Virus record (IMG/VR): IMGVR_UViG_3300038551_000023
Location: 1-47,069 of that record
Origin: a virus
Reading direction: 5' to 3' (one strand)
Length of the DNA stretch: 47,069 bases
Shown: one piece after another, positions 205 to 43,048 of the stretch
How the letters are laid out: each line of letters opens with the position of its first letter
Position numbering within the stretch: the first letter of the stretch is position 1
Notes under the pieces: generated by a model
Databases searched by the model: none
Told to the model about the DNA's origin: nothing
The model's input: the letters and a program-made list of their open reading frames with translations, nothing else
Position numbers and translations under genes: made by a program

Positions 205-1494
205 GTGGCGCTCCTTTTCGATACGTACTTCCAGTACGTTGAAAAAACTGAACCTCCACTGATTTACCATCGGTGGAGTTTAGCTGCGTGCGTTGGAGCT
301 GCGCTGGGCCGCCAATTCTTTCTCCCCTTTGGGCCATGGAAAATTTTCCCTAACATCTATGTGATGTTAATAGGGAATCCCGGCACTAGAAAGAATACAT
401 CAATTAATCTTGCAACTGAAATTTTAGAAGCTAGCGGCTATGCTCATTTCAGTGCCAATAAAACAAGACTAGAAAAGTTTCTAATAGATTTAGAAGGTGC
501 AACTCCTGATGAATCTGATGCCGACCGCTCCGCTAAACGCAACAGCACGAACATTGTATTTAAAAATCTCTTCAACGAGGATGAAGAAGATTGTACTGGC
601 TTAGAACCTAGAGAAGTATTTATTTGTGCTCCAGAATTTAACACATTCATGCCACGAGGCGATATAGATTTCATTGCTATTCTTGGTGACCTCTGGGACT
701 GGAACAATGACAAGCGTAGATGGAAACATCGCCTCAAGAACTCTAAGCAAGTTCACATATACCAGCCAACGATTTCTCTATTAGCAGGAAACACTCATGC
801 CGGATTTCAAGATATGTTTCCTCCCCAAGCCATTGGTCAAGGATTTCTATCACGAATTATTCTTGTTTATGCGGAACCGAGCGGCAAAAAGATCTCGTTT
901 CCTGAAACCCCGTCTGCGTCCACGAAACAAAACCTTATCAGGACTTTTACGGATATCAAGCAAAAGGTTGTCGGCGCAGCATCAATTGCGCCAGACGCAA
1001 AAAACGGTTTGGATATTATCTATCGAACGTGGCATGAAATTGACGATCAAAGATTCAAGCATTACAGTACACGAAGATTTACACATCTTCTTAAACTCAC
1101 GCTTATTTGTGCTGCATCGCGTGTCAGCACTAAGATTGAAATGTCAGATGTACTCTTGGCTTCCAGTTTGCTTTCTTTCACAGAAGCCGATATGCCAAAG
1201 GCTCTTGGAGAATTTGGAAAAAGTAGGAATGCTGAAGCTGCTAACAAAATTATGCAGAAACTCTATGAGGCTAGACGCCCGCTTACGCTCATAGATTTAT
1301 GGAAAGTAGTTAGTAGTGATCTTGAAAAGATGAAAGACTTAGGAGAACTTCTAGCAAATCTTCAACAAGCTGATAAGATTCAAGCAGTGGCAGGAAAGGG
1401 ATTTTTGCCTAAGCAAAAACCTCTTGATAGAAAAATGTTGTACGTTGATTATAACATATTAAAGGAGTACACAAGTGGAATCACAGGCCGGTGA
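205..1494 (+). CDS. P-loop replication protein, DUF3987-like
   Basis: This 429-residue protein begins with a GTG 6 bases after the polymerase stop. Residues 20-60 (YHRWSLAACVGAALGR, then a PNIYVMLIGNPG strand) resemble the start of DUF3987-type phage and plasmid proteins, which are primase/helicase-associated NTPases. The nucleotide-binding loop at residues 57-66 reads GNPGTRKNTS. The Walker Lys is present, but the preceding Gly is Arg and the residue after Lys is Asn followed by Thr, so the loop is non-canonical. Its place between the polymerase and a MazG-like gene supports a replication role, perhaps helicase or primase-helicase. There is no TOPRIM or zinc-binding primase region, so priming activity is not shown. 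Its last 20 bases overlap the next gene. Confidence 0.6.
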   Translation: MALLFDTYFQYVEKTEPPLIYHRWSLAACVGAALGRQFFLPFGPWKIFPNIYVMLIGNPGTRKNTSINLATEILEASGYAHFSANKTRLEKFLIDLEGATPDESDADRSAKRNSTNIVFKNLFNEDEEDCTGLEPREVFICAPEFNTFMPRGDIDFIAILGDLWDWNNDKRRWKHRLKNSKQVHIYQPTISLLAGNTHAGFQDMFPPQAIGQGFLSRIILVYAEPSGKKISFPETPSASTKQNLIRTFTDIKQKVVGAASIAPDAKNGLDIIYRTWHEIDDQRFKHYSTRRFTHLLKLTLICAASRVSTKIEMSDVLLASSLLSFTEADMPKALGEFGKSRNAEAANKIMQKLYEARRPLTLIDLWKVVSSDLEKMKDLGELLANLQQADKIQAVAGKGFLPKQKPLDRKMLYVDYNILKEYTSGITGR

Positions 1495-2068: not shown

Positions 2069-5000
2069 TGGGAGTTGCTAACATCATGGCGCGGTAGTCC
2101 TGCACAGTACTGCCGCCCATGATTTCCTGTAATCTCCTAGAATAGCTACTTCTGTGCTGTTGTGCAAGCTGATTAATTACCGATACGTTGGCGTCCTTAC
2201 TCCAGCGTTGCATAGTCTTTGCGTAATTTTCAATCCTCCCACCAGCTTTCGCGTAGTCCAACTGAAACTTCTGCAATTCTTCCAAAGATGGAAGTTTCCC
2301 CGCACGAAGTTTAGTTTTTACAACTTCCCCGAGTGTCTGCAAACGTACTTGATCTGCGGCTTCATAAGAAGCAAGTCTGAATTTTGCATTCAGCGCAATA
2401 CTCTCGTCTACAGGTTTGCTACCAATTAATCTTGCAGCAGTAGCAATAGAGAAGAAATCGTTAGACGCGCTAATCAAAGAACCTTTGCTGGTAGTGCTGT
2501 ATCCTTGCACTGCCTGAGCAATGCCAGCAAGCGGGCGACTAAGACCATTATGTTCTAGTCCTTCAAACAATACACTAGTAAGGTCTGCGCCTTTCACTGC
2601 TTTCTTGCCCATATCTAGCAAGTTACTTACAAAGCGAATACTCCCATCTACTGCCGGTACGTCAAGCGGAGTAATAGGAATAACAGAAATGTGGCGAGGA
2701 TTAATATCACCACGAGTATAAAGACTGGGAGCCTGACTAGACCAAAAAGGAAACGCAGAAGCCGTTCCATACATTAACCAATTCCCAAGATCTTTGTTTA
2801 GTTGTGGGATGGTGGAATACACATCTCTGTGTTCTGGATTGAGAGAACTGTTTCCAATCAATGAAGTATTAACTGCTTCAAAAAATGGAATGCCGTTCAA
2901 TCCATACATTCCAGTTTGCATTGCTCCCAAGGTAGCAAGTGCCCGCACATTTCTATTCTCAATGTGGCGAAAAAGTTGTTGCAAAAAGTTAAATTGGTAC
3001 GTCATGAACAAACCAATGGCGCTTCCTAGTACGCCTTGGAAAGCAATTGGACGTTGCGAACTAATGTAGTTACCTTGCACACGATTTACAAATACACTGA
3101 TGTATGCGTTTTGCTCTGCAACACTCAACTTCCCAGCTTGTACAATGGGATCAGTAAGTCTACGCATTACATCAGCAGAAACAAAGCGAGTGAAATCTTC
3201 TGCAAATGCATTACCAGTAAACTTTGCGCCAGTTTCGATACCTCGCGCCGCTCTCTCTGTAAGTTCGCTGGCTTTCTTATATGGCTTGTATGCGAAATGA
3301 TCTAGCATCTCATGGTACTGGCTAGCTACATCTCGCACTGCACCAATATCTTTGTATCGCTGGATAAGTTGATTCTTCTCAGGGCCAAAGAAGTTCTTAA
3401 TTCCTTCAGCAATTAGCCCCGTAGTACTGGGAACACGCACTGCTCCCTCAGTTCCGGGGACAGCAATACTACGCAGCTCACTCAGTTTTCCTACAAGCAC
3501 AGGATCTTTAGCAATCAAACTACGAATGCTTGCCATCTCTGTGCTAAGAAGAATAGGAGTGCTGATAATATTAACGAGGGAGTTAGCAAAGTCTAGGCGC
3601 AGGTTTAAATTCACCAGCGTCATATTTGCCTTGGCTACAAAGTCTTTAATGATGCTACGTTCTGCAGGAAGATTAGCAGCAAAGTAGCCAGCTTCATCCG
3701 TATACGGGCCTTTGATTCCAAAGCGTTCACTAATCCTGTTAGCTTCTTCCCAGCTAACAGTTCCTGCCATTGCTTTCTCTCTATTTACACCAAAGATCCG
3801 ATACGCACTGCGTCCAAGTTGCTCAACAAACTCATTGGCTTCATGAAGCAGAGTGTATTCGCCTCTCTTACTAATGTCCAGCGCAGTTTTGATATAATCG
3901 TTGAATGGGTTTTCAACTTGACTTCGAAACTTTTTAAGACCGGCGCTGGCCTTAGAGGTTCCAAGCTCGGTGAATTGTTTACCAATTCCACGGAGTTCTT
4001 CAATAGTCTGTGCGTATTTAGTTTCGGTTGCACGCCGAACAAGGCTAACTTCCTGTCGCTGGTGCCAATTAATATAATCTTCAAGCACGTTCTCAGCTTT
4101 TGTTTCTGGGAAGAAATCTCCCAAGATCCCGCGGCGTTGCAAAGTACTATCAACGGTGGGTTCTTTAATGGTAAGAGAATAATCGTAATCTCCTTTAATT
4201 CTGTGGAACCGCTCAGTATTCTCTTTGAAAATTACTTCGTAGTCATCAGGGACTTTAGTAACAAGTCCATGAAGTTCTTGTTCCGTGCGCGCCGTAATCA
4301 TAGAAACTTCTGAAGAAGTACCGAGCATTTCTGGCTTCTTCCGTACAAATGCAAAGTATGGATAGCGCCCAGTATCCACTGGAGGAATATAAACTACCCG
4401 AGGATCGTAGTTGTAATTGAACCCACGGCTAGTCATAAGGACTTTATTTTTTTCAATTCTACGGGCGTTAGCCACAGAACTTGCAGAAATAAATTCTGCG
4501 ACTTCATCTACTTCCATTACAAACTGATGTGCTCTTCCAGCTTTTTGCAATTCAATTAGTTTAGCTTCATTTACAATCCAACCACCTTCTGGCGCTTTTT
4601 CTACCGCTTCCAAATTCACAAGTCTCTTATTATTGATCGGATCAATCATGAATTTTTCAGGAGTTCTACGCATAGCCGTAGTGAGGATGCCAAGCTCTGC
4701 GGCAGCTTGCTTAGAATCTTTGATCCGAATCATTAAAGGCTGGAGTTCGGAGAGAGTAGCATTGGCATTGCGCCGACTAATTTCATGGACAAGGGCGCCA
4801 GTATATTGGCTCCACAAGCCTAGAACATCTCCGTAATCTGCATTGGAACTTTTCAGGAGACCCGCACCACTACCTGCTTGGTTAGCAATGTTGAGCACAG
4901 TATCAGCATTTAACTCTACAAACTTGGAAGCGTCTACCGTTCCCATGACAGCAGCAAAAGCTGACTGTCTTGCATCATTGCCGAGTTTTACTCTATACGC

Positions 5001-7169
5001 CCAGCCAAGCTCTCCGTAGATAGTATTGCCAGCAGCTTCTGGGAATCCTTGCACCATTACAGTATTAGGAACTTTTCCTGTTTTCCCAAGCAATGAATTT
5101 TCTAGGAGCTTAGGATGCGCAAAATCCCACAATACTTCCATGTTCTGTGGGCGCGTGCTTGCGCTGAGAGGCAAGGAAAATCCGCTACTAAGTTTCTCTG
5201 TAGGAATGAAGTTAGCAGCGATAGCATCCTGAATCCACACAGGATCGACATTAAGTTTGACCCCAAGACTTAAGAGATCTTCTCCTTTCTCATTCTTCCC
5301 AAGGAAGGATTGGAGAATCGCAAGCTTCTGCTCTTTAAGCCAAAGGCCAAAATCTTTAATGTCTCCTACTTTCCGCTCAGTATTGTCAGCAGAGCGCAGC
5401 ACTACATCTTTCCACTTATCTGCGCCATCTTGAAAGATACGTTCGAGCAAAGGAATATCCGTGTCTGCAACTTTCTGCGGGACAACTTTCAATTCCTTAC
5501 TTCCTGCCCAAACGTACCGCGCTGAAGCTTTGAGAGTATCGAGTTCTTCAAGAGCAAAAACATTATACGGTGCCATACTCCATTCTTTCCCTCCACTAAC
5601 AAGATGGGAAACAGAAGTCATAGCAAGGGGTTTAGTAGTCGTAGCAATGTCAGCTACAGTAGGATAGGCTACGTCAGTAAATGCTCCTACGCGCGCATTG
5701 AAGAAACTCTTCGGAGCAGTAATAGGTTCGTCTACTTTCCTAAATTTACTGCTCTTTGGATTAATACGGATAGTACCATTAGCCAATACAGCTACATCGT
5801 AGCCGTTGGAGAATGCATCATCTACTACAGCAAACCGCGCATAGCTAGTTTCAAGTACTGGCCCTTCTTGTTTCAATCCAACCAGCGCAACTTTAACATC
5901 ATCGCCAGTACCTACAAGTTCATAGGGAGTCTTAAATCCTTCTTTCCCCTTCGGACTTCTGCTAACTACTTCTGTAAGGAAAGAATTAAAATCTTTGATC
6001 TTGAAGATACGTTCTGGATCAATCTCTTTTGCAACGTAGAAAAGAGCAGGATCGTCGGCAGCATTCGCACTAACTCTGCGAATCTGCTTTACATTAAACA
6101 AGTGATCGCCTACACGATCCAAAATTTCCTCTTTGCTCTTCCCCGCCTGTTGTTCGCGCTTTACGAGATTGATTAGATAATCGGAAAATTGGTTTCCAAG
6201 TTCTGGGTCGCTCTGCGCCATGCGGTTGACAGTTTCACGAAAATCATCCCATCCACGTTTTTGTGCACTTTCTGCTGCACGTTCCAGCGCCTGCTTAGTA
6301 GGAAGCTCTAGCTTCCGTGTTTCTCCGCCAATGCGGTAGGTAAATTCAATGTCTCTTGCAGTAGTAGGAAGTTCCAGCAAACTCCTAACAGTACCGTAAG
6401 CTTTATCGCCAAGCACAATATCACCTTCAATGTGCTTGACAACATCAAACTCACGCATAGCAGCATCAATACTTCTAGTGCCTTGTTTGAAAATGGAGTT
6501 AATAGCGATAGATTCAATAGCTCCACCAATTCCACCAAACGCAAGGCTGGTAACAGCGACGTGCTTAAATACATCAGTCCATTCATCTTTCTCTAGCAAT
6601 GGACTTTGCTTCATTGTAATAGCTACAGCAGTTTCAAATGCTGCAACATTAATAGCTTGGTCAGCAGTTGCCCAAGCCATAGATGCAAGTTTATTTTTAT
6701 TAATGAGATTAAATACAGTTCCGCCCTCTGTAGCAAGTTCTTTGAGTCCTTGCTCCAGATAAAGTTTTTGTCTAGTGCTTGCATAGCCAAGAGCACGACC
6801 GAATGGCCCCAACATAGTACCAGCTTTCGCTAGTTGTACGCCTTTCAGCGCAAGGCCACCGGGGATTAAGCTAGTACCAATGAATCCTGCAAGATCTGTA
6901 AGTTGCTTATTTTGTTGGTAGTACAAACCAAGATGTTCATCATTGTCGCTAAGCCACTGCGCCACATTCCACTGTTCTTCCCCGAGTAAATTTGCGGCAG
7001 TATTATAGACGGACGCAATACCACTAACAGCGGCAGATTTAGTAAACATCCCTGCACGTTCAATCAGACTGTATTCACTACCAGCCTGCATATTTGCCGT
7101 GTCAGCGGCAGTGATTACAGGATGGATTGATGCGTAATCTGTTACTTCAGAAACATTATTTTCGGCCAT
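2025..7169 (-). CDS. Very large internal virion / DNA ejection protein
   Basis: At 1714 residues this is the largest gene, and it is the last gene of the leftward virion operon. Near residues 90-135 there are Gly/Ala/Leu-rich stretches (DLAGFIGTSLIPGGLALKG), and others around 170-220, that could enter membranes. The rest is long, helix-rich and lacks signal peptide or enzymatic motifs that I can recognise. Position right after a transglycosylase-bearing virion protein, size, and the end-of-operon location match the large ejection proteins of podoviruses (analogous to T7 gp16 or the big inner proteins of N4-like phages). The start ATG overlaps the preceding stop by one base (TAATG at 7169). 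Function is inferred from context. Confidence 0.6.
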   Translation of the reverse strand: MAENNVSEVTDYASIHPVITAADTANMQAGSEYSLIERAGMFTKSAAVSGIASVYNTAANLLGEEQWNVAQWLSDNDEHLGLYYQQNKQLTDLAGFIGTSLIPGGLALKGVQLAKAGTMLGPFGRALGYASTRQKLYLEQGLKELATEGGTVFNLINKNKLASMAWATADQAINVAAFETAVAITMKQSPLLEKDEWTDVFKHVAVTSLAFGGIGGAIESIAINSIFKQGTRSIDAAMREFDVVKHIEGDIVLGDKAYGTVRSLLELPTTARDIEFTYRIGGETRKLELPTKQALERAAESAQKRGWDDFRETVNRMAQSDPELGNQFSDYLINLVKREQQAGKSKEEILDRVGDHLFNVKQIRRVSANAADDPALFYVAKEIDPERIFKIKDFNSFLTEVVSRSPKGKEGFKTPYELVGTGDDVKVALVGLKQEGPVLETSYARFAVVDDAFSNGYDVAVLANGTIRINPKSSKFRKVDEPITAPKSFFNARVGAFTDVAYPTVADIATTTKPLAMTSVSHLVSGGKEWSMAPYNVFALEELDTLKASARYVWAGSKELKVVPQKVADTDIPLLERIFQDGADKWKDVVLRSADNTERKVGDIKDFGLWLKEQKLAILQSFLGKNEKGEDLLSLGVKLNVDPVWIQDAIAANFIPTEKLSSGFSLPLSASTRPQNMEVLWDFAHPKLLENSLLGKTGKVPNTVMVQGFPEAAGNTIYGELGWAYRVKLGNDARQSAFAAVMGTVDASKFVELNADTVLNIANQAGSGAGLLKSSNADYGDVLGLWSQYTGALVHEISRRNANATLSELQPLMIRIKDSKQAAAELGILTTAMRRTPEKFMIDPINNKRLVNLEAVEKAPEGGWIVNEAKLIELQKAGRAHQFVMEVDEVAEFISASSVANARRIEKNKVLMTSRGFNYNYDPRVVYIPPVDTGRYPYFAFVRKKPEMLGTSSEVSMITARTEQELHGLVTKVPDDYEVIFKENTERFHRIKGDYDYSLTIKEPTVDSTLQRRGILGDFFPETKAENVLEDYINWHQRQEVSLVRRATETKYAQTIEELRGIGKQFTELGTSKASAGLKKFRSQVENPFNDYIKTALDISKRGEYTLLHEANEFVEQLGRSAYRIFGVNREKAMAGTVSWEEANRISERFGIKGPYTDEAGYFAANLPAERSIIKDFVAKANMTLVNLNLRLDFANSLVNIISTPILLSTEMASIRSLIAKDPVLVGKLSELRSIAVPGTEGAVRVPSTTGLIAEGIKNFFGPEKNQLIQRYKDIGAVRDVASQYHEMLDHFAYKPYKKASELTERAARGIETGAKFTGNAFAEDFTRFVSADVMRRLTDPIVQAGKLSVAEQNAYISVFVNRVQGNYISSQRPIAFQGVLGSAIGLFMTYQFNFLQQLFRHIENRNVRALATLGAMQTGMYGLNGIPFFEAVNTSLIGNSSLNPEHRDVYSTIPQLNKDLGNWLMYGTASAFPFWSSQAPSLYTRGDINPRHISVIPITPLDVPAVDGSIRFVSNLLDMGKKAVKGADLTSVLFEGLEHNGLSRPLAGIAQAVQGYSTTSKGSLISASNDFFSIATAARLIGSKPVDESIALNAKFRLASYEAADQVRLQTLGEVVKTKLRAGKLPSLEELQKFQLDYAKAGGRIENYAKTMQRWSKDANVSVINQLAQQHRSSYSRRLQEIMGGSTVQDYRAMMLATPTTSEASPVSDEGQE

Positions 7170-14154: not shown

Positions 14155-16311
14155 TTAGTAAGTGCTGCTTCCAAATCCAATTACAGGGAAACGCCTAGCA
14201 GATGCATGAGTTCCGTTGATCTGGCTAAATGCAATAGACGCAGGAAATGCAGTAGTTGACGCGCTGTAGAATCCTTGTCCTAGGCGCGGTTGCTTAGTAG
14301 CATTAGTCGCAGTTCCAAACTGCCCAGAAAAGTTAGAACTAATATTGCTAACTAGCATATTCGAATACGATCCATTGGCGCCAGCAGTGCTGGTAGAACT
14401 AATGAATGCAATCCAGTACCGATTTTCTGGAATACTAGTAGCACCAAATGTAATTGGAAACATTCTGTTTCCAGAATACCAAGAGTAAGAGCCAGCAGTT
14501 CCAGAATGAGTTACTGCTGTAGAGCCAGTAAAGGAAGTAAATAGGGAAAGTCTACTGGCATCTCGCGTATAGAGTCCTACAGAGAAACGAAGTGTATGGG
14601 AGCCAGAAGAGTTGGAACTATTGGTATTCTGTAGTCCAAGAACAAGTCGGTCAAAAGATATATTAGGGAGATTTTGAGGATCAATAATAAGAGATCCTTG
14701 TCCAACTTGAGCAACTATTTGTACTAAGTCATCATATGGATGGTATCCCGGAGCAGTAAATCCTCCGCCACCGCCACCTGCCCCTACACTGAATCCAATA
14801 GTAGACCCAGTAGTACCAATAGTAATGTTAGTAATTGCAGAAAGACTAGATGTGGGGGGAGCACTGAAATTAATTACACTTCCATTAGTTCCAGAAAGTG
14901 TAAGATTAATTCCAGAAAACCCAATAGTAGAACCACTGGCCGTGGTGTTTCCAGAAGTATTGGCGCCAAGTAGATGATGCCAATTCGCCTCGGCTGCTGC
15001 TCCGGGGGCAGCTACAGAAAGATCAACTCGCAATCCATTAGTGTTAATGGTAAGCGAGCCAGAGATATTTGTACCATTGAATGTAGTAGCAGTATTACTG
15101 AAGTATTGCGTTACAGATGGTACAGATGGTACGGTATAACTACCAACTAATGAGCCGTTGGAGGTGTAGAAACTGAATCCGTTGAGGTTTCCGAAAGTTG
15201 CAGTTTGGAAAGTGAAACTGCCATTTGATCCACTAAGTGCCTGATTGCTTTGACTCGTAAGTCCATTATGACTAGCTGTGATTGAGTTGCCTGCGCTCGT
15301 GCCAAAGCTGATTCCATTAGCGTTACTAAATCCGAGAGTTTGGAATGTAAAGCTACCATTCTGTCCACTTGCTGCTTGGTTAGATTGGCTTGTGAGTCCA
15401 TTGTGGCTTCCGGTGATTGTCTGTCCATTTACTCCAAAAGAAATACCGTTGGAGTTAGAGAATACTGCTTCTCCTGTAGTAATTCTTGTAGTGCCCGCAC
15501 TGATGGATTGAATGCCCGGTTGTACAGATTGGGTAGGTACAGTATAAGCACCTGTAATAGTACTACCGTCCAAGCCAAAAGAAAATCCATTGGAATTACT
15601 AAAAACTACAGATTGAAGATTGTTACTAGTAGTTCCTGCAGAAAAGTTTACTGCTCCACCGCCGCCGGGCGCTGCAACTGAGAGATCTACCCGCAGTCCA
15701 TCAGTATTGTGGGTAAGAGACCCACTGATGTTCGTTCCATTGAATGTAGTATTTGTATTGCTAAAGTATGGCGTGAGCGATGGAATGGAAGGAACAGTAT
15801 AACTTCCAACGAGAGAGCCATTGGAAGTATAAAAACTCATTCCATTCAAATTTCCAAACGTAGCAGTTTGAAAAGTAAAAGACCCATTAGAGCCACTAAG
15901 TGCTTGATTACTTTGACTAGTTAAAGCATTGTGGCTAGCAGTAACTGTTTGGCCATTAACGCCAAAAGAAATACCATTAGCATTGGAAAATTCTACTTGG
16001 CCAAGAGTTGCATTTGTAGTGCCAGCAGAAATAGACCCAGCAGGAGCCGCAGGTGCAGCACTAGCAGTAATAGTGCCGCCGTTTAGCCCAAATGAAACTC
16101 CATTAGCATCTCCAAAGACTACTGACTGGAGATTGGCACTTGTGGTGCCTGCGCTAAAGTTAATGGCAGCGCCGCCAACAGCAATAGCGGCTGCTAACTG
16201 AGTAAAAGGTACACGAAAGTTAGTCGTACTACTTACATCAATAACAAACAGGCCAGCACTTAGCTGTGGGCCACTAGGCTCTGGAAACGCAAAGATTGGC
16301 AGACCGGACAT
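14155..16311 (-). CDS. Repeat-rich tail fibre protein
   Basis: This is 718 residues. Residues 1-35 form a short conserved head ending in FRVPFTQLAAA, like the attachment segment of many phage fibres. Residues 40-470 are built from copies of SAGTT...F(S/G)N.NG(I/F/M)SFG...T(V/I)T.S. On top of this, a unit of roughly 110 residues (from HN.LTSQSNQALSGSNGSF to GLRVDLSVAAPG) occurs twice, at about 105-220 and 330-445, with few substitutions. The last 190 residues lack the repeats, contain a Gly-rich hinge (VGAGGGGGGF) and look like a globular tip. The repeats suggest a trimeric beta-structured shaft, with host range set by the tip. The start is one base inside the previous stop. Confidence 0.7.
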   Translation of the reverse strand: MSGLPIFAFPEPSGPQLSAGLFVIDVSSTTNFRVPFTQLAAAIAVGGAAINFSAGTTSANLQSVVFGDANGVSFGLNGGTITASAAPAAPAGSISAGTTNATLGQVEFSNANGISFGVNGQTVTASHNALTSQSNQALSGSNGSFTFQTATFGNLNGMSFYTSNGSLVGSYTVPSIPSLTPYFSNTNTTFNGTNISGSLTHNTDGLRVDLSVAAPGGGGAVNFSAGTTSNNLQSVVFSNSNGFSFGLDGSTITGAYTVPTQSVQPGIQSISAGTTRITTGEAVFSNSNGISFGVNGQTITGSHNGLTSQSNQAASGQNGSFTFQTLGFSNANGISFGTSAGNSITASHNGLTSQSNQALSGSNGSFTFQTATFGNLNGFSFYTSNGSLVGSYTVPSVPSVTQYFSNTATTFNGTNISGSLTINTNGLRVDLSVAAPGAAAEANWHHLLGANTSGNTTASGSTIGFSGINLTLSGTNGSVINFSAPPTSSLSAITNITIGTTGSTIGFSVGAGGGGGGFTAPGYHPYDDLVQIVAQVGQGSLIIDPQNLPNISFDRLVLGLQNTNSSNSSGSHTLRFSVGLYTRDASRLSLFTSFTGSTAVTHSGTAGSYSWYSGNRMFPITFGATSIPENRYWIAFISSTSTAGANGSYSNMLVSNISSNFSGQFGTATNATKQPRLGQGFYSASTTAFPASIAFSQINGTHASARRFPVIGFGSSTY

Positions 16312-21430: not shown

Positions 21431-22067
21431 GATCTTCAATCTCCGTCATTTTCAGCAATTGATACTCACCACCAGTAGGAGCCTGTGCAGTTCCCGGCGG
21501 TGGGCCAAATAACATTACAGCTAGTTTATTTGCTGCTTCAATATATCCGATCATTTCGAATATACGTTTAGCCGCATCCAATACAATTACTGCTGGCTGC
21601 TGTCTTGCAATCCAACTTTCGTAGCTGCCTTCAGGAGTAAGTACGGGGTTTGCATAGTAGCCAACAATGAAAGAATCAATGGCTGCGGCTAGACGAATAT
21701 TCAAATTCGTGCCAGCAGTATAGTAGACACCAGTTTTCTCAATTAGATACTCATCGAAAATTCCTGCAGGCGCAATAGGTTCAAGGAGGAAATTTACTGG
21801 ACTTTGCGTTACAGAATCGTAAGGACGAATATACGCAAAGTTGCGCCAATTCGGAAATAACGTAGGAATATCTAATTGATAAATTGATTGCGCAGGAGAC
21901 GCAGAAGGAGTAATAACTTCTACAATATCTTTCTTGTAGTAATCACTACGGTGTGCTGCAAGAGTTGCTTGGCGAACAGCCAATGCCGTCTCTGCTACTA
22001 GATCAGGACGGTTAGTAATGGAGTAAACTCCATCTGCCCCAGAAACCAAATCAGAGAAGAGCGACAT
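21420..22067 (-). CDS. Head-tail adaptor / tail tubular protein-like
   Basis: This is 215 residues. Size and position after the capsid gene, the helix-rich N terminus (LVAETALAVRQATLAAHRSD followed by YY), the FPNWRNFAYIRPYD strand and the C-terminal helices (AAKRIFEMIGYIEAANKL) resemble T7 gp11-type adaptor (tail tubular A) proteins that cap the portal. The family is inferred rather than proved. Its end overlaps the lectin fibre start. Confidence 0.5.
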   Translation of the reverse strand: MSLFSDLVSGADGVYSITNRPDLVAETALAVRQATLAAHRSDYYKKDIVEVITPSASPAQSIYQLDIPTLFPNWRNFAYIRPYDSVTQSPVNFLLEPIAPAGIFDEYLIEKTGVYYTAGTNLNIRLAAAIDSFIVGYYANPVLTPEGSYESWIARQQPAVIVLDAAKRIFEMIGYIEAANKLAVMLFGPPPGTAQAPTGGEYQLLKMTEIEDHGR

Positions 22068-24570: not shown

Positions 24571-25383
24571 TTAAATACTGCCGCTACCTTCTTCAAGAAA
24601 CTTAGTCCAGTCTGGAGCACTATTTCCCCCGCCTCCAGCAGCCTTTGTATCTTGCGTAGCCTTTGTAACTTCGCTCATTGCAGCGCCCATTGCCAAGAAA
24701 TAATCTTCTGCTTTTCTACTTACATCAGAAGGAGAAAGTTCTGGGTTCAAATCTGCAATATGTTTTCTCATTGCAGCTAGAACTGGTTGCGCTGCGGGGT
24801 GCTGGAGAGCTTTGTTTTCAGGTTTTGAGAAATTAATTTGGAAGTCTCTAAACCTATTTCCAAGAACAGATTCGAATCGGTCGTTGTTCTTGCGAAAAGC
24901 AGCTTCATTAATTCCCACCATCATCTGTACGACAGTGGCAAATGTTCCTTGAAGTGCTTGGTTTAGAGCTTGATTGAAAGCAGAGGCATCCCCCTGCAAA
25001 GCTTTTGATACTAGCTCTTGATTAAGAGTTCTAGTAAAATCCATTTTTGAAACAGCTTGCGAAAACTTTGACGGATCTAGCTCCATGAGCTTCTCCGCTA
25101 GCGGATTTTTTGCAGGCTGTTTAGTATCATCTACTTTAAAGAGTTCCTGAAAACTATCAAGCGGGGAACTCGTTGTCGTCTTAGGAGTTCCATCCGGATT
25201 CTTATTGTTAGCATTAGGATCAGGAACTTCCGTAGTAGTAGGAACAACAGGTTTCGTACCTGTGGGGTCTGGCTTTGCTGGCGGATTAGCATCTGTCGCA
25301 GCTTTCGCAGCGGCGTTAGGAACGCCACTTTGGGCGCCAGAAAACATTGAAGCAATATTGAATCCTGCGTTTTCACCGGCCAT
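24571..25383 (-). CDS. Scaffolding protein (inferred)
   Basis: This is 270 residues. The first 90 residues are Pro/Asn/Thr/Lys-rich and disordered. The rest is helical with many Gln, Glu, Lys and Ala (residues 90-235), and the C terminus is short and mixed. Size, composition and location between the portal and capsid genes match phage scaffolding proteins, which guide procapsid assembly and then exit or are cleaved. No separate prohead protease is visible, so removal is probably by exit. Confidence 0.65.
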   Translation of the reverse strand: MAGENAGFNIASMFSGAQSGVPNAAAKAATDANPPAKPDPTGTKPVVPTTTEVPDPNANNKNPDGTPKTTTSSPLDSFQELFKVDDTKQPAKNPLAEKLMELDPSKFSQAVSKMDFTRTLNQELVSKALQGDASAFNQALNQALQGTFATVVQMMVGINEAAFRKNNDRFESVLGNRFRDFQINFSKPENKALQHPAAQPVLAAMRKHIADLNPELSPSDVSRKAEDYFLAMGAAMSEVTKATQDTKAAGGGGNSAPDWTKFLEEGSGSI

Positions 25384-29782: not shown

Positions 29783-30234
29783 ACCTACTATTCTCCAGAC
29801 CTAGAGAGTTTCTGCTAGCGGGGAACCCTCTCGAATTTTTTAGAAAATTTTTGAGATGAGTATGTAGGACTTGCAGCTTTCCACGCTCAAAAAAGTACTC
29901 CCCCCGTCAGCACAGTAGGATTTTTCGTAACCGAGCGAAGCGAGCGGTGCGACGAGCGAACGAAGTGAGCGATTGTTTGTCGCACTCGATTCGCCTCTGC
30001 CGAACGAAGTGAGGCTCGTTGCTTTTCCGGTGCGAGCGCAGCGAGCACTCGATTCCAGCAACACCAACAAGAAAGAACCACTATCCAATTGGTATCCTCA
30101 GCACTCAACGCGCAGAAGCAACAAACGAAGGCTGAGACGCTAAATCGCGCGCGCACAGAAAAAATGCTGCAAGGCAACAAGTCTGCAAGTTGTTTGCTTG
30201 CAAACCTGCTGCCGTTGCAGAGTTTTTCTGGCTG
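29783..30234. other. Non-coding stretch upstream of terS with GAGCG-type repeats
   Basis: This 452-bp stretch has no convincing gene; reading frames here run through the repeats and lack ribosome sites. It contains an A/T-rich segment (29836-29856, ATTTTTTAGAAAATTTTTGAG), the GAGCG-type repeat cluster at 29933-30046, and a 6-bp hairpin TGCAAG/CTTGCA at 30184-30202. A possible leftward promoter, TTGAGC with TACATA 18 bases on (about 29866-29895 on the minus strand), is weak. Candidate roles are packaging site, replication origin or the late promoter region. Confidence 0.5.
29933..30046. repeat. Cluster of four GAGCG-type mirror-like repeats
   Basis: Units: GAGCGAAGCGAG (29933-29944, an exact mirror repeat), GAGCGAACGAAGTGAGCG (29954-29971), GAACGAAGTGAG (30002-30013) and GCGAGCGCAGCGAGC (30032-30046). 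The word GCACTCGATTC also occurs twice between and after them (about 29981 and 30045). The units are purine-rich on one strand and lie in the non-coding stretch directly upstream of the small terminase gene. Confidence 0.75.
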
Positions 30235-30411
30235 CTACTTCCTAGGCATGAATCCTAGCAGAATCCAGTGCGCAGCATTGAAGCTGAATCCTCTATGCTG
30301 CAAGTAGGACGCTGCTACTTTCATGCCCTGAAGTATCGCCAGTGCTTTCGCAGTGCGGATAAAATGCACCGTTTGGCTGTCCGTGCGAAACTTCTTGATG
30401 GTTTTAGGCAT
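30235..30411 (-). CDS. Small basic protein, unknown
   Basis: This is 58 residues from ATG 30411, 10 bases after the stop of the upstream gene. A longer reading from 30504 would overlap that gene and was not used. The sequence is basic at both ends (MPKTIKKFRTDSQTVHFIRT ... GFMPRK) with one helical core (AKALAILQGMKVAASYLQ). No ribosome site is obvious, so it may be translated by coupling. It is not recognised. Confidence 0.5.
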   Translation of the reverse strand: MPKTIKKFRTDSQTVHFIRTAKALAILQGMKVAASYLQHRGFSFNAAHWILLGFMPRK

Positions 30412-30421
30412 GACAGCACGC

Positions 30422-31310: not shown

Positions 31311-31332
31311 TTTGGGCAGGAAAGTGCCCAAA
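31311..31332. promoter_or_regulatory. Hairpin / operator-like inverted repeat TTTGGGCA
   Basis: This is a perfect 8-bp inverted repeat TTTGGGCA (31311-31318) and TGCCCAAA (31325-31332) around GGAAAG, followed by TTTT on the plus strand. The same half-site recurs downstream at about 31375. It could be a protein-binding operator or a small rho-independent terminator for a plus-strand RNA. Confidence 0.5.
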
Positions 31333-31427
31333 TTTTGCGCAGGAGAATCAAGCACTTAGCTAGTATGTGCCACTTTTGGGCATCTGTCAGCTTTCCAACT
31401 CTGGCCCGGTTTTCGGGCACATAGTTA

Positions 31428-31471
31428 AATGAGTAGACAGCTTTTGAGTTAGTGCTTCAATGAGTAGACAG
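31428..31471. repeat. 13-bp direct repeat, 31-bp period
   Basis: AATGAGTAGACAG occurs exactly at 31428-31440 and 31459-31471. A 31-bp period is close to three helical turns, so both copies would face the same side of DNA, as expected for iterons or a cooperative operator. Confidence 0.75.
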
Positions 31472-31665
31472 GCTAGAAGTTTGTGAGTTGAGGCACGATT
31501 CCCCTGTGCATCCTGTACCATTTGTGCATCTGTTCACCTGTACCGCTCCCCCACACTCTCCCCCGTGGAGGGTCTATCTAAGATACTTTCATGGTTCTAT
31601 GGTAAGAGAAAGTTTCTCTTTTCTTTTGTTGTTTCTTTCTACGGAAGGGGTCAAAAACTAACGGC

Positions 31666-37139: not shown

Positions 37140-37802
37140 ATGTCTGAAACCCCAACGGTTGTAAACATTCCTACCGAAGCAAAGGAAACTTCCTTCCACT
37201 TCAAGAAAGAAAAGATCCGTGATCCGAAAGGTTCCGTGATCGGTGAAGGGAAGAAACTTCCTAGCCTGAAGCTGAATGTTCCTGTTCCTACGGCTGAAGG
37301 CGTGCTGGAAATCGTGAAAGCTGGCGGCAAAGAACTGGAGTTGCTGCTTTCTGCCTGTGCTGATACTGTGTACGGGCGTCTGCGCACTGTCATCAATGAA
37401 GTGCGTGAGAAACTTCCGGCAGATGCTGAAATCAAGCCTGAAATGATTGACCTGTCGCAAGCTAGTTGGTCGGTCATTGCCAGCATTCCAAAAGCGCAGC
37501 GTGCTGGCCTTGGTATCAGCGACGAAGATTGGAACGATTTTGCTGCTGACTACCGCGCAATCATGGCGGCGGCCACTGGCAAAGATGCTGACCGGATCGA
37601 AAAGCATATCCAGCTTTTCCAGAAGAAATTTGCGCCCTGCCGCAATGACAAGAAAGCTCTCGGTGTTCTTAAAGAGATGCTTGCTGTCTGGGCTGCAAAC
37701 ACTGGCAGCATGGAAGATAACCAGACTGTGTACGAATACCTGAGCAATCGGGTTGACAGTCTGCTGGCCGAGGAAGAGAAGATTCTTTCCGAAGCTCTGT
37801 AA
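37140..37802 (+). CDS. Unknown helical protein upstream of the hammerhead ribozyme
   Basis: This is 220 residues (MSETPTVVNIPTEAKE...). A basic, beta-like start (SFHFKKEKIRDPKGSVIGEG) is followed by a long helical part: VIASIPKAQRAGLGISDEDW, NDFAADYRAIMAAATGKDAD, then LKEMLAVWAANTG. Codon choice is like that of the capsid gene, suggesting strong expression. The closest ribosome-site candidate, GAAGGGAAG, is about 15 bases upstream, farther than usual. It may be a remote homologue of the 30422-31066 product. The stop codon is directly followed by stem I of a hammerhead ribozyme, so its mRNA would be cleaved about 75 bases after the stop. Function is unknown. Confidence 0.7.
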   Translation: MSETPTVVNIPTEAKETSFHFKKEKIRDPKGSVIGEGKKLPSLKLNVPVPTAEGVLEIVKAGGKELELLLSACADTVYGRLRTVINEVREKLPADAEIKPEMIDLSQASWSVIASIPKAQRAGLGISDEDWNDFAADYRAIMAAATGKDADRIEKHIQLFQKKFAPCRNDKKALGVLKEMLAVWAANTGSMEDNQTVYEYLSNRVDSLLAEEEKILSEAL

Positions 37803-37882
37803 ACCAACTGATGAGCTGGTGAAATTCCAGCGAAACGAGGAAGGGTTACAAATGGATTGTATCCTCCCTTTCTCGTCTTGGT
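37803..37882 (+). ncRNA. Type I hammerhead ribozyme
   Basis: All invariant core positions are present in order. Stem I is ACCAA (37803-37807) with TTGGT (37878-37882). The core CTGATGA is at 37808-37814. Stem II GCTGG/CCAGC (37815-37819, 37827-37831) closes a 7-nt loop and keeps the G10.1-C11.1 pair. GAAA follows at 37832-37835. Stem III CGAGGAAGGG/CCCTTTCTCG (37836-37845, 37866-37875) is 10 bp with one G-U and is extended by TACAA/TTGTA. The cleavage triplet GTC is at 37875-37877, with cleavage after C37877. Stems II and III are capped and stem I is open, so it is type I. It starts at the first base after the preceding stop codon. Loop-loop tertiary contacts cannot be judged by eye. Confidence 0.9.
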
Positions 37883-37911
37883 AATTTAATAGATGCTGTG
37901 CTTATTCTAGG

Positions 37912-38098
37912 CTAGCTACCTAGATTTTGTGGGATTATAAAAAGCACACTGGAACCACAGTAACCAGTTAGGTAGAGGCCAAACCTTGCAGTAACGTGCT
38001 GTGAGGTTCTACCTAAGAGAGCACTGGGATGGTGAAGTTAAGCCCATCAAAAATGAAAGCAGTGCTCTCCTAGGTAGTTGGACGAAGTACCCCACAAA
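37912..38098 (+). ncRNA. Structured non-coding RNA with pseudoknot, unknown class
   Basis: Hand folding gives one coherent structure. Closing stem P1 is CTAGCTACCTAG (37912-37923) with CTAGGTAGTTGG (38070-38081), 12 bp with two G-U. A pseudoknot pairs TTTGTGGG (37926-37933) with CCCACAAA (38091-38098), 8 perfect bp. Between them are three hairpins: ACTGG/CCAGT (37948-37968); TTAGGTAGA/TCTACCTAA (37968-38016) with an inner 9-bp ACCTTGCAG/CTGTGAGGT stem; and GAGAGCACTG/CAGTGCTCTC (38017-38069) with an inner GATGG/CCATC. Hairpin 3 abuts both hairpin 2 and P1, as in a stacked junction. It does not match tmRNA, RNase P, 6S, group I intron or riboswitch signatures that I know. Confidence 0.7.
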
Positions 38099-38259
38099 CT
38101 GCGTAACGGACATCCGGCAAACTAATTGAGGCCAAAACATCCGTGGACAATCTGGCACACAACGCTCAGACAATAACGCGAGGGAAGAGTGCTCCGAGTA
38201 ACCCTCATATTCTTTATACAGTGAAGTGTTATCTCTACTATGTAGAAAGAGGCACAAAG
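38099..38259 (+). other. Leader between structured RNA and next gene
   Basis: No gene is seen. It contains a 5-bp hairpin GAGGG/CCCTC near 38181 and the word GAGGCCAAA (38128-38136), which also occurs inside the structured RNA (37976-37984). AAAGAGG just before 38260 is the ribosome site of the next gene. Confidence 0.4.
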
Positions 38260-38517
38260 ATGGATAAACCCCGTCCTAAAACTAACCTTCCTGTAACTCC
38301 CTCCAAGCCATCGCAGTCTGCTGCGAAAAATATCTTCACGATGGCATCGTACAATGCAGAGCAACTGAAGAAACAAGTAGCTCTGCAAACTTCCAACATG
38401 GTAGGCATGGGCATCCTGATGAAAACGCGGGAAATGCGTACTGTGTCTAAATACGCTCCACATCAGGGAGCTAGGGAGATTGCGCGAAGGAAGAAACAGA
38501 GTGGCATCAGTTCTTGA
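38260..38517 (+). CDS. Small basic protein after the structured RNA, unknown
   Basis: This is 85 residues from ATG 38260, with AAAGAGG upstream; an in-frame start at 38143 lies without a ribosome site in the leader. The N terminus is Pro/Lys/Ser-rich and disordered, and the C terminus is helical and basic (APHQGAREIARRKKQSGIS). It may bind nucleic acid. It overlaps the next gene by 17 bases. Confidence 0.6.
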   Translation: MDKPRPKTNLPVTPSKPSQSAAKNIFTMASYNAEQLKKQVALQTSNMVGMGILMKTREMRTVSKYAPHQGAREIARRKKQSGISS

Positions 38518-41955: not shown

Positions 41956-42150
41956 ATGTGTAAGATGTGTGAACAAAAATATAATCCACCAATACTCATT
42001 AAAGGTACACACATTTTAGAATGTATTGGCCCCGCAGAAAATCAATCTGTGCCATGCTGGAAATGCACAGAAACTATTCGCTCTAACGAGACAGTAGAAA
42101 AAGGTACTTTCAAAAATTTAAGGAGAAAGAGTGCTTCTCACAGACTATGA
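41956..42150 (+). CDS. Small zinc-ribbon-like protein
   Basis: This is 64 residues from ATG 41956. CKMC at the N terminus and CWKC in the middle (PCWKCTETIRSN) form a two-CxxC zinc-ribbon pattern; a further Cys lies at IECIG-like position 24. The end is basic (RRKSASHRL). The ribosome site (CCGGAG, 11 bases away) is weak. It overlaps the Sak4-like gene by 20 bases. Confidence 0.45.
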   Translation: MCKMCEQKYNPPILIKGTHILECIGPAENQSVPCWKCTETIRSNETVEKGTFKNLRRKSASHRL

Positions 42151-43048
42151 ACAGAAAAAGTCCCACAAGATTTGTGTATTCGGGCGCGCCAAGGTAGGGA
42201 AAACAGCTTTGGTTGCGCAACTTGCGCGCATCGGCAAACTCTGGTGGTTTGATCTTGAAGATGGAATTAAAACTGCTCTCAATGAATCTATCCTCCCTAA
42301 AGAGTACTGGAAGAACATTGAAGTAATCAGAATTCCATCGCTTCAAGCTGTCCCTATGGGGATAGAAACTCTACTGAAAGTTATCAAAGGCGATGACTGC
42401 AAAATTTGTTGGACACATGGCAAGGTCAGTTGTCCAGTTTGCGGCAAAGATCCTACTGCATATCATACTAATATTTGTCTGCGCAATTTTACTAGTAACG
42501 ATTGGCTCGTGATTGATTCAATCACCCAGCTAAGCGCAGACGCAAATGCCGCAGTTCTCAAATTCATCTTCGGCACTGCCGACACTCCAGAAAAATTCAT
42601 ACTGGATAAAGATACTGGAGGCAAAGATTTCAAATATCCAATGGCTGTGTCTTTTATGCTTGATCGTATCTTTTCCACTATTCAAGCTGGCAACTTCAAT
42701 TGTGCTGTTATCTCTCACGAAGTAATGACTGAGCGCACAAAAGATACAGGACATATGCCGGGAAAAGGAGAGAATCAGCCTAGCGATAATGTAGAAATGA
42801 TCTTTCCTGCGGCGGGGAGTAGAAACTTTAGCCGCAATTTCGGTAAATATTTCGATATGCTGATTCATGTAGATATCGTGAATCGCAAGCATCGTGCATT
42901 TTCTTCCACACTCTATCATCCTACCATCCAAACTGGCAGCAGACTTCCTTTTAACATTGAAGATATGAAAGATGAAAAAGGAAATACACTGACGCCGGGG
43001 GATGCACTAGTAGCAATGTTCAAACCACAGATTAAGGAAACCAAATAA
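42131..43048 (+). CDS. Sak4-like RecA-type ATPase (single-strand annealing/recombinase)
   Basis: This is 305 residues from GTG 42131, preceded by AAGGAGA. The P-loop GRAKVGKT (18-25) is followed by WWFDLEDGIKTAL. Walker B is WLVIDS (Asp129). A zinc-ribbon-like insert, Cys90/93 and Cys101/104 (CKIC...CPVC), lies between them, which is not usual for the family. Sak4 (AAA_24) proteins are phage RecA-like annealing factors that work with an SSB. Here an SSB-like gene lies 450 bases downstream and a nuclease upstream, the expected set for homologous recombination. Confidence 0.8.
   Translation: MLLTDYEQKKSHKICVFGRAKVGKTALVAQLARIGKLWWFDLEDGIKTALNESILPKEYWKNIEVIRIPSLQAVPMGIETLLKVIKGDDCKICWTHGKVSCPVCGKDPTAYHTNICLRNFTSNDWLVIDSITQLSADANAAVLKFIFGTADTPEKFILDKDTGGKDFKYPMAVSFMLDRIFSTIQAGNFNCAVISHEVMTERTKDTGHMPGKGENQPSDNVEMIFPAAGSRNFSRNFGKYFDMLIHVDIVNRKHRAFSSTLYHPTIQTGSRLPFNIEDMKDEKGNTLTPGDALVAMFKPQIKETK

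Follow-up and report, generated by a model that had tools for sequence, protein, structure and literature searches.

A covariation-supported structured RNA behind a predicted hammerhead ribozyme in an intergenic gap of a viral genome

The linear IMG/VR virus record analysed here (47,069 bases, the whole of which is called the window) contains a gap of 457 nt (37803-38259) between gene X and small ORFs starting at 38260, which raises the question what this gap encodes and how its product would act. Most likely, the locus encodes a structured RNA, for which we infer from the sequence both release by a hammerhead ribozyme and a function. A coding region was rejected because each plus-strand frame of 37803-38259 contains 7-12 stops and the alignment of the relatives contains gaps of 1 and 2 nt in this region, in agreement with the preliminary description of this DNA, which had placed an RNA in a non-coding gap. 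Neither the protein encoded by gene X nor ORF Z, the small basic ORF on the 3' side of the RNA, had a match in Pfam or PHROG. Terminator-like sites were as frequent in shuffled sequences as in the original (3.2 expected, 3 observed), so that an intrinsic terminator was rejected, and no 3'-processing signal or convincing terminator was found.

The 187 nt from 37912 to 38098, which had been proposed as an RNA because so many compatible helices seemed unlikely by chance, fold with -67.4 kcal/mol versus -45.9 ± 4.2 kcal/mol in 200 dinucleotide shuffles (z -5.1, none of the shuffles as low), which bears out that estimate. For the wider region 37800-38260, z was -4.3 and none of 100 shuffles folded as well. 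A fold scan of the window in 180-nt stretches, with 20 shuffles each and 673 of the 782 stretch-strands scored, ranked the plus strand of the stretch from 37921 eighth and its minus strand first among all those scored. Other stretches with z below -4.7 were 30121-30420, 21721-21900, 24841-25020 and 14761-14940 on the minus strand and 31321-31500 and 2041-2220 on the plus strand.

Hammerhead ribozymes are recognized by the conserved core CUGAUGA ... GAAA and an NUH cut site. The stretch 37804-37881 carries the complete core (37808-37814 and 37832-37835) and the cut-site letters U37876 and C37877, has three stems round the core and is open at stem I; by these features it is a canonical type I hammerhead and predicted to cleave itself (Table 1). 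All three stems are fully paired despite differing sequence in four phages, namely the window and the related contigs L002, L003 and L021. No Rfam hammerhead model reached its gathering score; the match to Hammerhead_3 was partial, with 18.5 bits (E 0.36) and a cut-off of 48.5. The assignment was hence made by motif and not by model. A regular expression detected no hammerhead in L005 or L018, but the same expression also missed the copy in L003 because of its stem II. The predicted cut after C37877 lies 34 nt before 37912, exactly the distance between cleavage site and structure that had been noted before. With natural phage hammerheads, such as those in PMC3088659, this hammerhead shares the CTGATGA/GAAA core, the three stems, the cut after UC and the intergenic position, whereas the conserved RNA on the 3' side of its 78 nt belongs to none of the hammerhead families. 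When the region was compared by blastn with the phages collection, five records were found, each matching 27-29 nt of the hammerhead only. In Pseudomonas phage phita81A (L100:1501-1600), a hammerhead-like motif with 29 nt that are 96.6% identical to those of the window precedes a tRNA-Thr gene by about 260 nt. Upstream of the hammerhead, L002 (about 4730-4776) and L003 (about 4684-4729) have a conserved hairpin with a possible pseudoknot GGGAGTATGGCGCCTGTAT...ATACTCCC, which is absent from the window.

Table 1. Positions of the RNA features, the flanking genes and the module M sites; positions refer to the window unless a contig is given.
Feature	Position	Strand	Remark
Gene X	37140-37802		upstream of the RNA gap
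Type I hammerhead	37804..37881	+	core motif and three stems
Hammerhead stem I	37804-37807/37878-37881
Hammerhead CTGATGA	37808-37814
Hammerhead stem II	37815-37819/37827-37831
Hammerhead GAAA	37832-37835
Hammerhead stem III	37836-37845/37866-37875
Predicted cut	between 37877 and 37878
Domain A	37898..38081	+	conserved structured RNA, model R1
P1	37898-37903/37942-37947 (within 37898..37947)	+	encloses hairpin P1a and GUGG strand
P1a	37907-37911/37919-37923	+	loop holds palindrome UAGCUA, 37913-37918
Probable pseudoknot	37928-37932/37955-37959	+	UGUGG with CCACA of P2 loop
P2	37948-37952/37964-37968 (37948..37968)	+	hairpin with GGAACCACAGUAACC
P3	37969-37976/38008-38015 (within 37969..38015)	+
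P3a	37983-37991/37999-38007 (within 37969..38015)	+
P4	38017-38026/38060-38069 (38017..38069)	+	with inner GATGG/CCATC
Strand d	38071..38077	+	near-copy of P3 5' arm; alternative helix P5 with 38009-38015
Domain B	38101..38206	+	P0 38101-38104/38176-38179; P1 38106-38110/38140-38144
Domain B hairpin P3	38180-38184/38202-38206	+	GGA...UCCGAGUAACC
ORF Z	38260..38517	+	small, basic; context 3' of the RNA, outside the RNA itself
Module M	L002:5116-5222
Module M	L021:6129-6265
Module M	L094:5318-5426
Module M	L095:2961-3127
Module M	L096:1442-1597
Module M	L105:6881-6988	-
Module M	L107:12350-12501
Module M	L108:1105-1209	-

Downstream of the hammerhead, domain A is very probably a real conserved structured RNA. 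In the alignment of the three distinct domain A sequences (A2: window, L002, L003), all 129 cells of its six helices with 43 pairs (37898-38069) are paired, and 15 of the 43 pairs change on both sides, a number that none of 500 shuffles reached; slid controls of the structure were 34-47% paired. The double changes are found in P1 (2/6), P1a (2/5), P2 (3/5), P3 (2/8) and P4 (6/10) and are missing from P3a (0/9), where one of the nine pairs changes on one side and the rest are identical across the three phages; over P3/P3a (columns 82-121 of A2), the sequences differ at two columns only. Many invariant letters of domain A are situated in loops and joining strands. RNAalifold, run without a supplied structure, returned P1, P1a, P2, P3a and P4, with P5 in place of P3. 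Addition of L018 and L005 gave 182 of 183 cells paired and 24 of 43 pairs double-changed, in an alignment that was fitted to the model and leans towards it. Within P1, the UGUGG strand is complementary to the CCACA of the P2 loop in all three phages and probably pairs with it as a pseudoknot, but the sequence of this contact is invariant and therefore offers no covariation test. The palindromic loop UAGCUA is also present in all three copies and may allow domain A to form a kissing dimer.

This architecture departs from the preliminary description, in which a 12-bp closing stem and an 8-bp pseudoknot to 38091-38098 were thought to hold three hairpins together. All pairings named there are present in the sequence, the five-helix listing for 37912-38098 was confirmed, and the three hairpins are P2, P3/P3a and P4 with the covariation given above. 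Covariation had been suggested as a check for the closing stem, the pseudoknot and the third hairpin; it was found for the third hairpin (P4) and neither for the closing stem nor for the pseudoknot. The 12-pair stem 37912-37923/38070-38081 includes two G-U pairs and is used by the minimum free energy fold of the 187 nt; it is paired in 30 of 35 cells, a level that 226 of 500 shuffles also reach, and it is broken at up to three pairs in a relative. It also competes with P1/P1a, whose pairs covary: 37907-37923 instead forms a covarying hairpin of its own inside the covarying stem 37898-37903/37942-37947. A five-pair core of the 12-pair stem (37914-37918/38075-38079) is kept, with 5/5 pairs in the window and L003 and 4/5 in L002, so that a contact between loop and strand at these positions is possible. 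The exact 8-bp match of TTTGTGGG (37926-37933) with CCCACAAA (38091-38098) exists in the window, but no exact counterpart of at least 5 nt occurs in the 3' flank of L002 or L003. As a whole, the exact fold described earlier is thus very unlikely, although both of its closing pairings can be drawn in the window. The RNA begins 14 nt upstream of the former left border (37898 versus 37912), and a count of three hairpins and one pseudoknot, correct for the hairpins, understates the structure since strand 38071-38077 competes for the second hairpin. Neither this competing helix nor a second domain (38101-38206) with the same GGA...AGTAACC hairpin had been described.

The competing helix, P5, forms because strand d repeats the 5' arm of P3 (arm b) in each of the three phages, and both strands change together with their shared partner b'; as a result, two alternative folds exist in all three phages. 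P3 and P5 are mutually exclusive. P5 comprises seven pairs, with 21 of 21 cells paired and two pairs changing on both sides. When only the helices were considered, the energies with P3 and with P5 were -49.9 and -49.8 kcal/mol in the window, -44.1 and -44.0 in L002, and -47.9 and -47.9 in L003, which means that they were equal to 0.1 kcal/mol in all three. With further pairs allowed, P5 was favoured by 3.3 (window), 0.3 (L002) and 7.9 kcal/mol (L003). Because the energy model prefers P5 once other helices are allowed, a true switch between P3 and P5 stays a proposal. The double changes are located at two neighbouring positions that set the window apart from the pair L002/L003 and may represent a single evolutionary event, and as only three near relatives carry the full domain A, few independent changes back the alternative helix. 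The covarying exchange of strands is therefore suggestive. Strand-exchange riboswitch platforms work with two near-identical strands that compete for one partner. Strand competition is common to both, whereas no ligand domain, terminator or ribosome-site output was found here. Arm b could also be paired with CTCTACT directly 5' of the ribosome site of ORF Z; this pairing was seen by eye in the window only, is absent from L002 and L003, and was rejected.

Domain B follows domain A and shares with it the GGA...AGUAACC hairpin, the second copy of which is located at 38180-38206, so that the hairpin recurs in the two domains within about 230 nt. The window contains two such hairpins with a stem of at least five pairs; dinucleotide shuffling (400 replicates) gave 0.0225 on average and never two. 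Compensatory changes preserve the three helices of domain B in L002 and L003, and a search for its pattern hit three contigs only: L002, L003 and a near-identical record of the window's phage.

Relatives of the locus were collected through its neighbours. A search with protein X yielded five contigs, one of them distant, a six-row profile of protein X yielded 13 loci, and the neighbouring gene 42131-43048 yielded 20 loci. Model R1, made from the domain A sequences of the window, L002 and L003, was searched in 17 distinct contigs with a homologue of protein X, window included. It scored 227 bits in the window, 228 in L003 and 216 in L002, which match by construction, and it likewise matched L004, where the RNA is identical to that of the window. 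Independent matches were found in L018 (27.5 bits, E 3.1e-5) and, weakly, in L005 (15.7 bits, E 0.049), both in the same gene gap, while the other 11 of the 17 contigs, L021 among them, gave none. Over 62 further loci, the best score was 15.7 bits (L017, from the same contig as L005) and the next 11.7 bits; with a score only a little above noise, the support for L005 comes from its gene position. R1 had no match in twelve phage records outside the group, a scan of bacterial genome contigs with the domain A pattern gave no hits, the protein X profile found nothing in bacterial genome contigs, and protein X had no match in the phages collection. A loose pattern of the P1-P2 core occurred in 37 stretches of viral contigs; among the 39 sites listed, which include the copies already known, every site with a P2 stem of at least four pairs fell in one of the known phages, within a long open frame (L079, L068, L084) or in L073. 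In the latter (374-788, minus strand), a non-coding gap of about 415 nt, in which no frame is open beyond 22 codons, contains a GGAAACAAGTAACC hairpin at about 514-543 with a 6-pair stem, preceded by TATAAA. This hairpin resembles the P1-P2 core of domain A and makes L073 a candidate relative outside the group; R1 gave only 5.0 bits at this site and thus no confirmation. The next large ORF of L073 is presumably a jumbo-phage DNA polymerase. In L094, three spacers between tRNA genes (4375-4560, 4901-5020 and 5107-5222) show long closing stems by eye, and a hairpin loop UUUAGCUA in the first of them resembles P1a of domain A.

Comparison with known RNAs produced no assignment. Rfam 15 gave nothing at gathering score over the whole window, nor on 37891-38083, where the sub-threshold models were unrelated (E 0.36 or more); a known Rfam RNA was rejected on the grounds that only such chance-like matches were found, and the earlier statement that no RNA class fits holds for Rfam. 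No title or abstract opening describing the domain A RNA or the module M discussed below was found in open PubMed Central, the coverage of which stops short of subscription papers and preprints. The domain A RNA family is new, narrowly distributed among the sequences searched and absent from Rfam 15. It resembles ROOL and GOLLD, which, according to PMC12286853, are phage-encoded, elaborate and conserved structured RNAs with no known protein partner and are often located near tRNA islands, as is module M of the relatives. In contrast to these, domain A is far shorter (about 190 nt, or about 310 nt with domain B), is headed by a hammerhead, has no match to the ROOL/GOLLD models of Rfam, and is not accompanied by tRNA genes: neither tRNA nor tmRNA genes were found within the window, nor tRNA genes in the loci of L002, L003, L005, L018 and L021. 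The species 1 and 2 RNAs of phage T4 (rnaC, rnaD) are likewise small structured phage RNAs and adjoin tRNA genes in T4; a relation was rejected as models R1 and R2 had no match in the T4 genome. The phiKZ ncRNAs derived from untranslated regions, described in PMC8545117 as structured products of processing, about 100 and 180 nt long, from trailers or leaders, were also rejected as relatives, since R1 finds nothing in phiKZ and the loci differ.

The hammerhead locus shares its gap with a second RNA motif in L002, where it lies beside domain A, and in L021. This module M is a double-pseudoknot RNA of about 100 nt with the pattern CUCAAUU..CUGACG..AAUGAC..AAACUUACGGUGAUG..UAAACCGU, present in eight phages (Table 1) and absent from the window. 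In seven sequences, its four helices, which make two pseudoknots, are paired in 144 of 146 cells and 11 of 21 pairs are double-changed, while one of the four helices, the ACGGU/ACCGU contact, is invariant. A model built without L021 finds L021 with 42.1 bits (E 1.3e-6), and module M has no match in Rfam. Four phages (L094, L105, L107, L108) carry it within or close to tRNA genes; in jumbo phage Psa21 it follows the nuclear shell gene, and in jumbo phage phiHQ it occupies a gap flanked by genes annotated as hypothetical. In phiKZ-like phages (phiKZ itself, L097:2530-2923, and L098, L099, L095 and L096), the stretch from the nuclear shell gene to its next neighbour contains differing, structured-looking segments; these seem swapped between phages, with a terminator-like hairpin at the end.

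How the RNA acts can be approached from its gene context. A small ORF follows the RNA in the window, L002, L003 and perhaps L005: ORF Z has a homologue in L002 by tblastn and a similar ORF in L003 by eye, and the weak match in L005 directly precedes a small basic ORF. An ORF like Z was not found 3' of the RNA in L018 or L021; an unrelated ORF comes next in L018, and in L021, where by eye only a P1a-like hairpin accompanies the hammerhead, the gap runs into gene Y. The RNA region is retained where the gene behind it differs, and the same gap holds module M in L002 and L021; for these two reasons we favour an RNA that would work mainly stand-alone, acting in trans or as an RNA-protein particle during infection, with the exchange of b and d as its switch, a proposal that in our estimate has an even chance of being right. 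The position of module M near tRNA genes fits a locus for processed, trans-acting RNAs. Against the stand-alone RNA weigh that neither a 3'-processing signal nor a convincing terminator was found and that the regular expression gave no hammerhead in L005 or L018. A polycistronic transcript would be cut by the hammerhead after C37877, leaving an RNA whose folded body would start 20 nt from the new 5' end. During synthesis, P1-P2 would fold first, arm b of P3 would then pair with b', and P4 would form next, before strand d displaces b to give P5; this exchange could serve as a folding or binding switch.

The main rival to a stand-alone RNA is a cis-acting leader, in which A and B, with their common GGA...AGUAACC hairpin and a loop contact, would stand in tandem 5' of ORF Z as sensor-like leader domains, and exchange of b and d or the hammerhead cut would tune the next gene in the manner of a riboswitch or a protein-autoregulated leader. 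Domain B is situated in the ORF Z leader and reaches to about 50 nt from the start of the ORF, as expected of a cis element, which speaks for the leader and against the stand-alone RNA. The repetition of the hairpin in A and B far beyond expectation, the many invariant letters in loops and joining strands and the small basic ORF behind the match in L005 also favour the leader. Against it stand the exchange of the following gene in L018 and L021, the distance of about 180 nt between the end of domain A and ORF Z, and the finding that neither a terminator tied to P4 or strand d nor a conserved pairing with the ribosome site was seen; we regard a cis-acting leader as possible but less probable than the stand-alone RNA. 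Going beyond the stand-alone RNA, the locus could be conceived as a ribozyme-released island of exchangeable RNA modules, traded among tRNA arrays, the nuclear-shell locus in jumbo phages and the early-gene gap described here; in this island domain A would be bistable and its P3/P5 exchange together with UAGCUA would allow strand-swapped homo-oligomers. Wide spread was seen for module M only, with the hairpin core of L073 as the one outside candidate for domain A, and we consider this idea rather doubtful. For phage hammerheads that flank blocks of genes, a role in dividing long transcripts into gene-sized messages has been proposed (PMC3088659), and domain A, beginning 20 nt behind the cut, might merely shield the 5'-OH of a trimmed message from RNases without any specific partner; the long identical runs in P3/P3a exceed the needs of a stability stem and make this improbable. 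That the region acts as DNA, as a cruciform or as a recombination or replication site, is extremely improbable even though both strands fold well, as the kept helices use G-U pairs, the hammerhead is strand-specific and the invariant letters are found in single-stranded loops of the plus strand.

With domain A, a family supported by covariation is added to the few elaborate phage RNAs known. The locus also led to module M, a second unlisted RNA motif that is common to unrelated phages including phiKZ-like jumbo phages. A strand-exchange switch can be tested directly on the two folds, which have the same helix energy and are maintained by corresponding changes. The hammerhead would fix the exact 5' end of a structured RNA, and for natural phage hammerheads the release of such an RNA would be a concrete candidate job.
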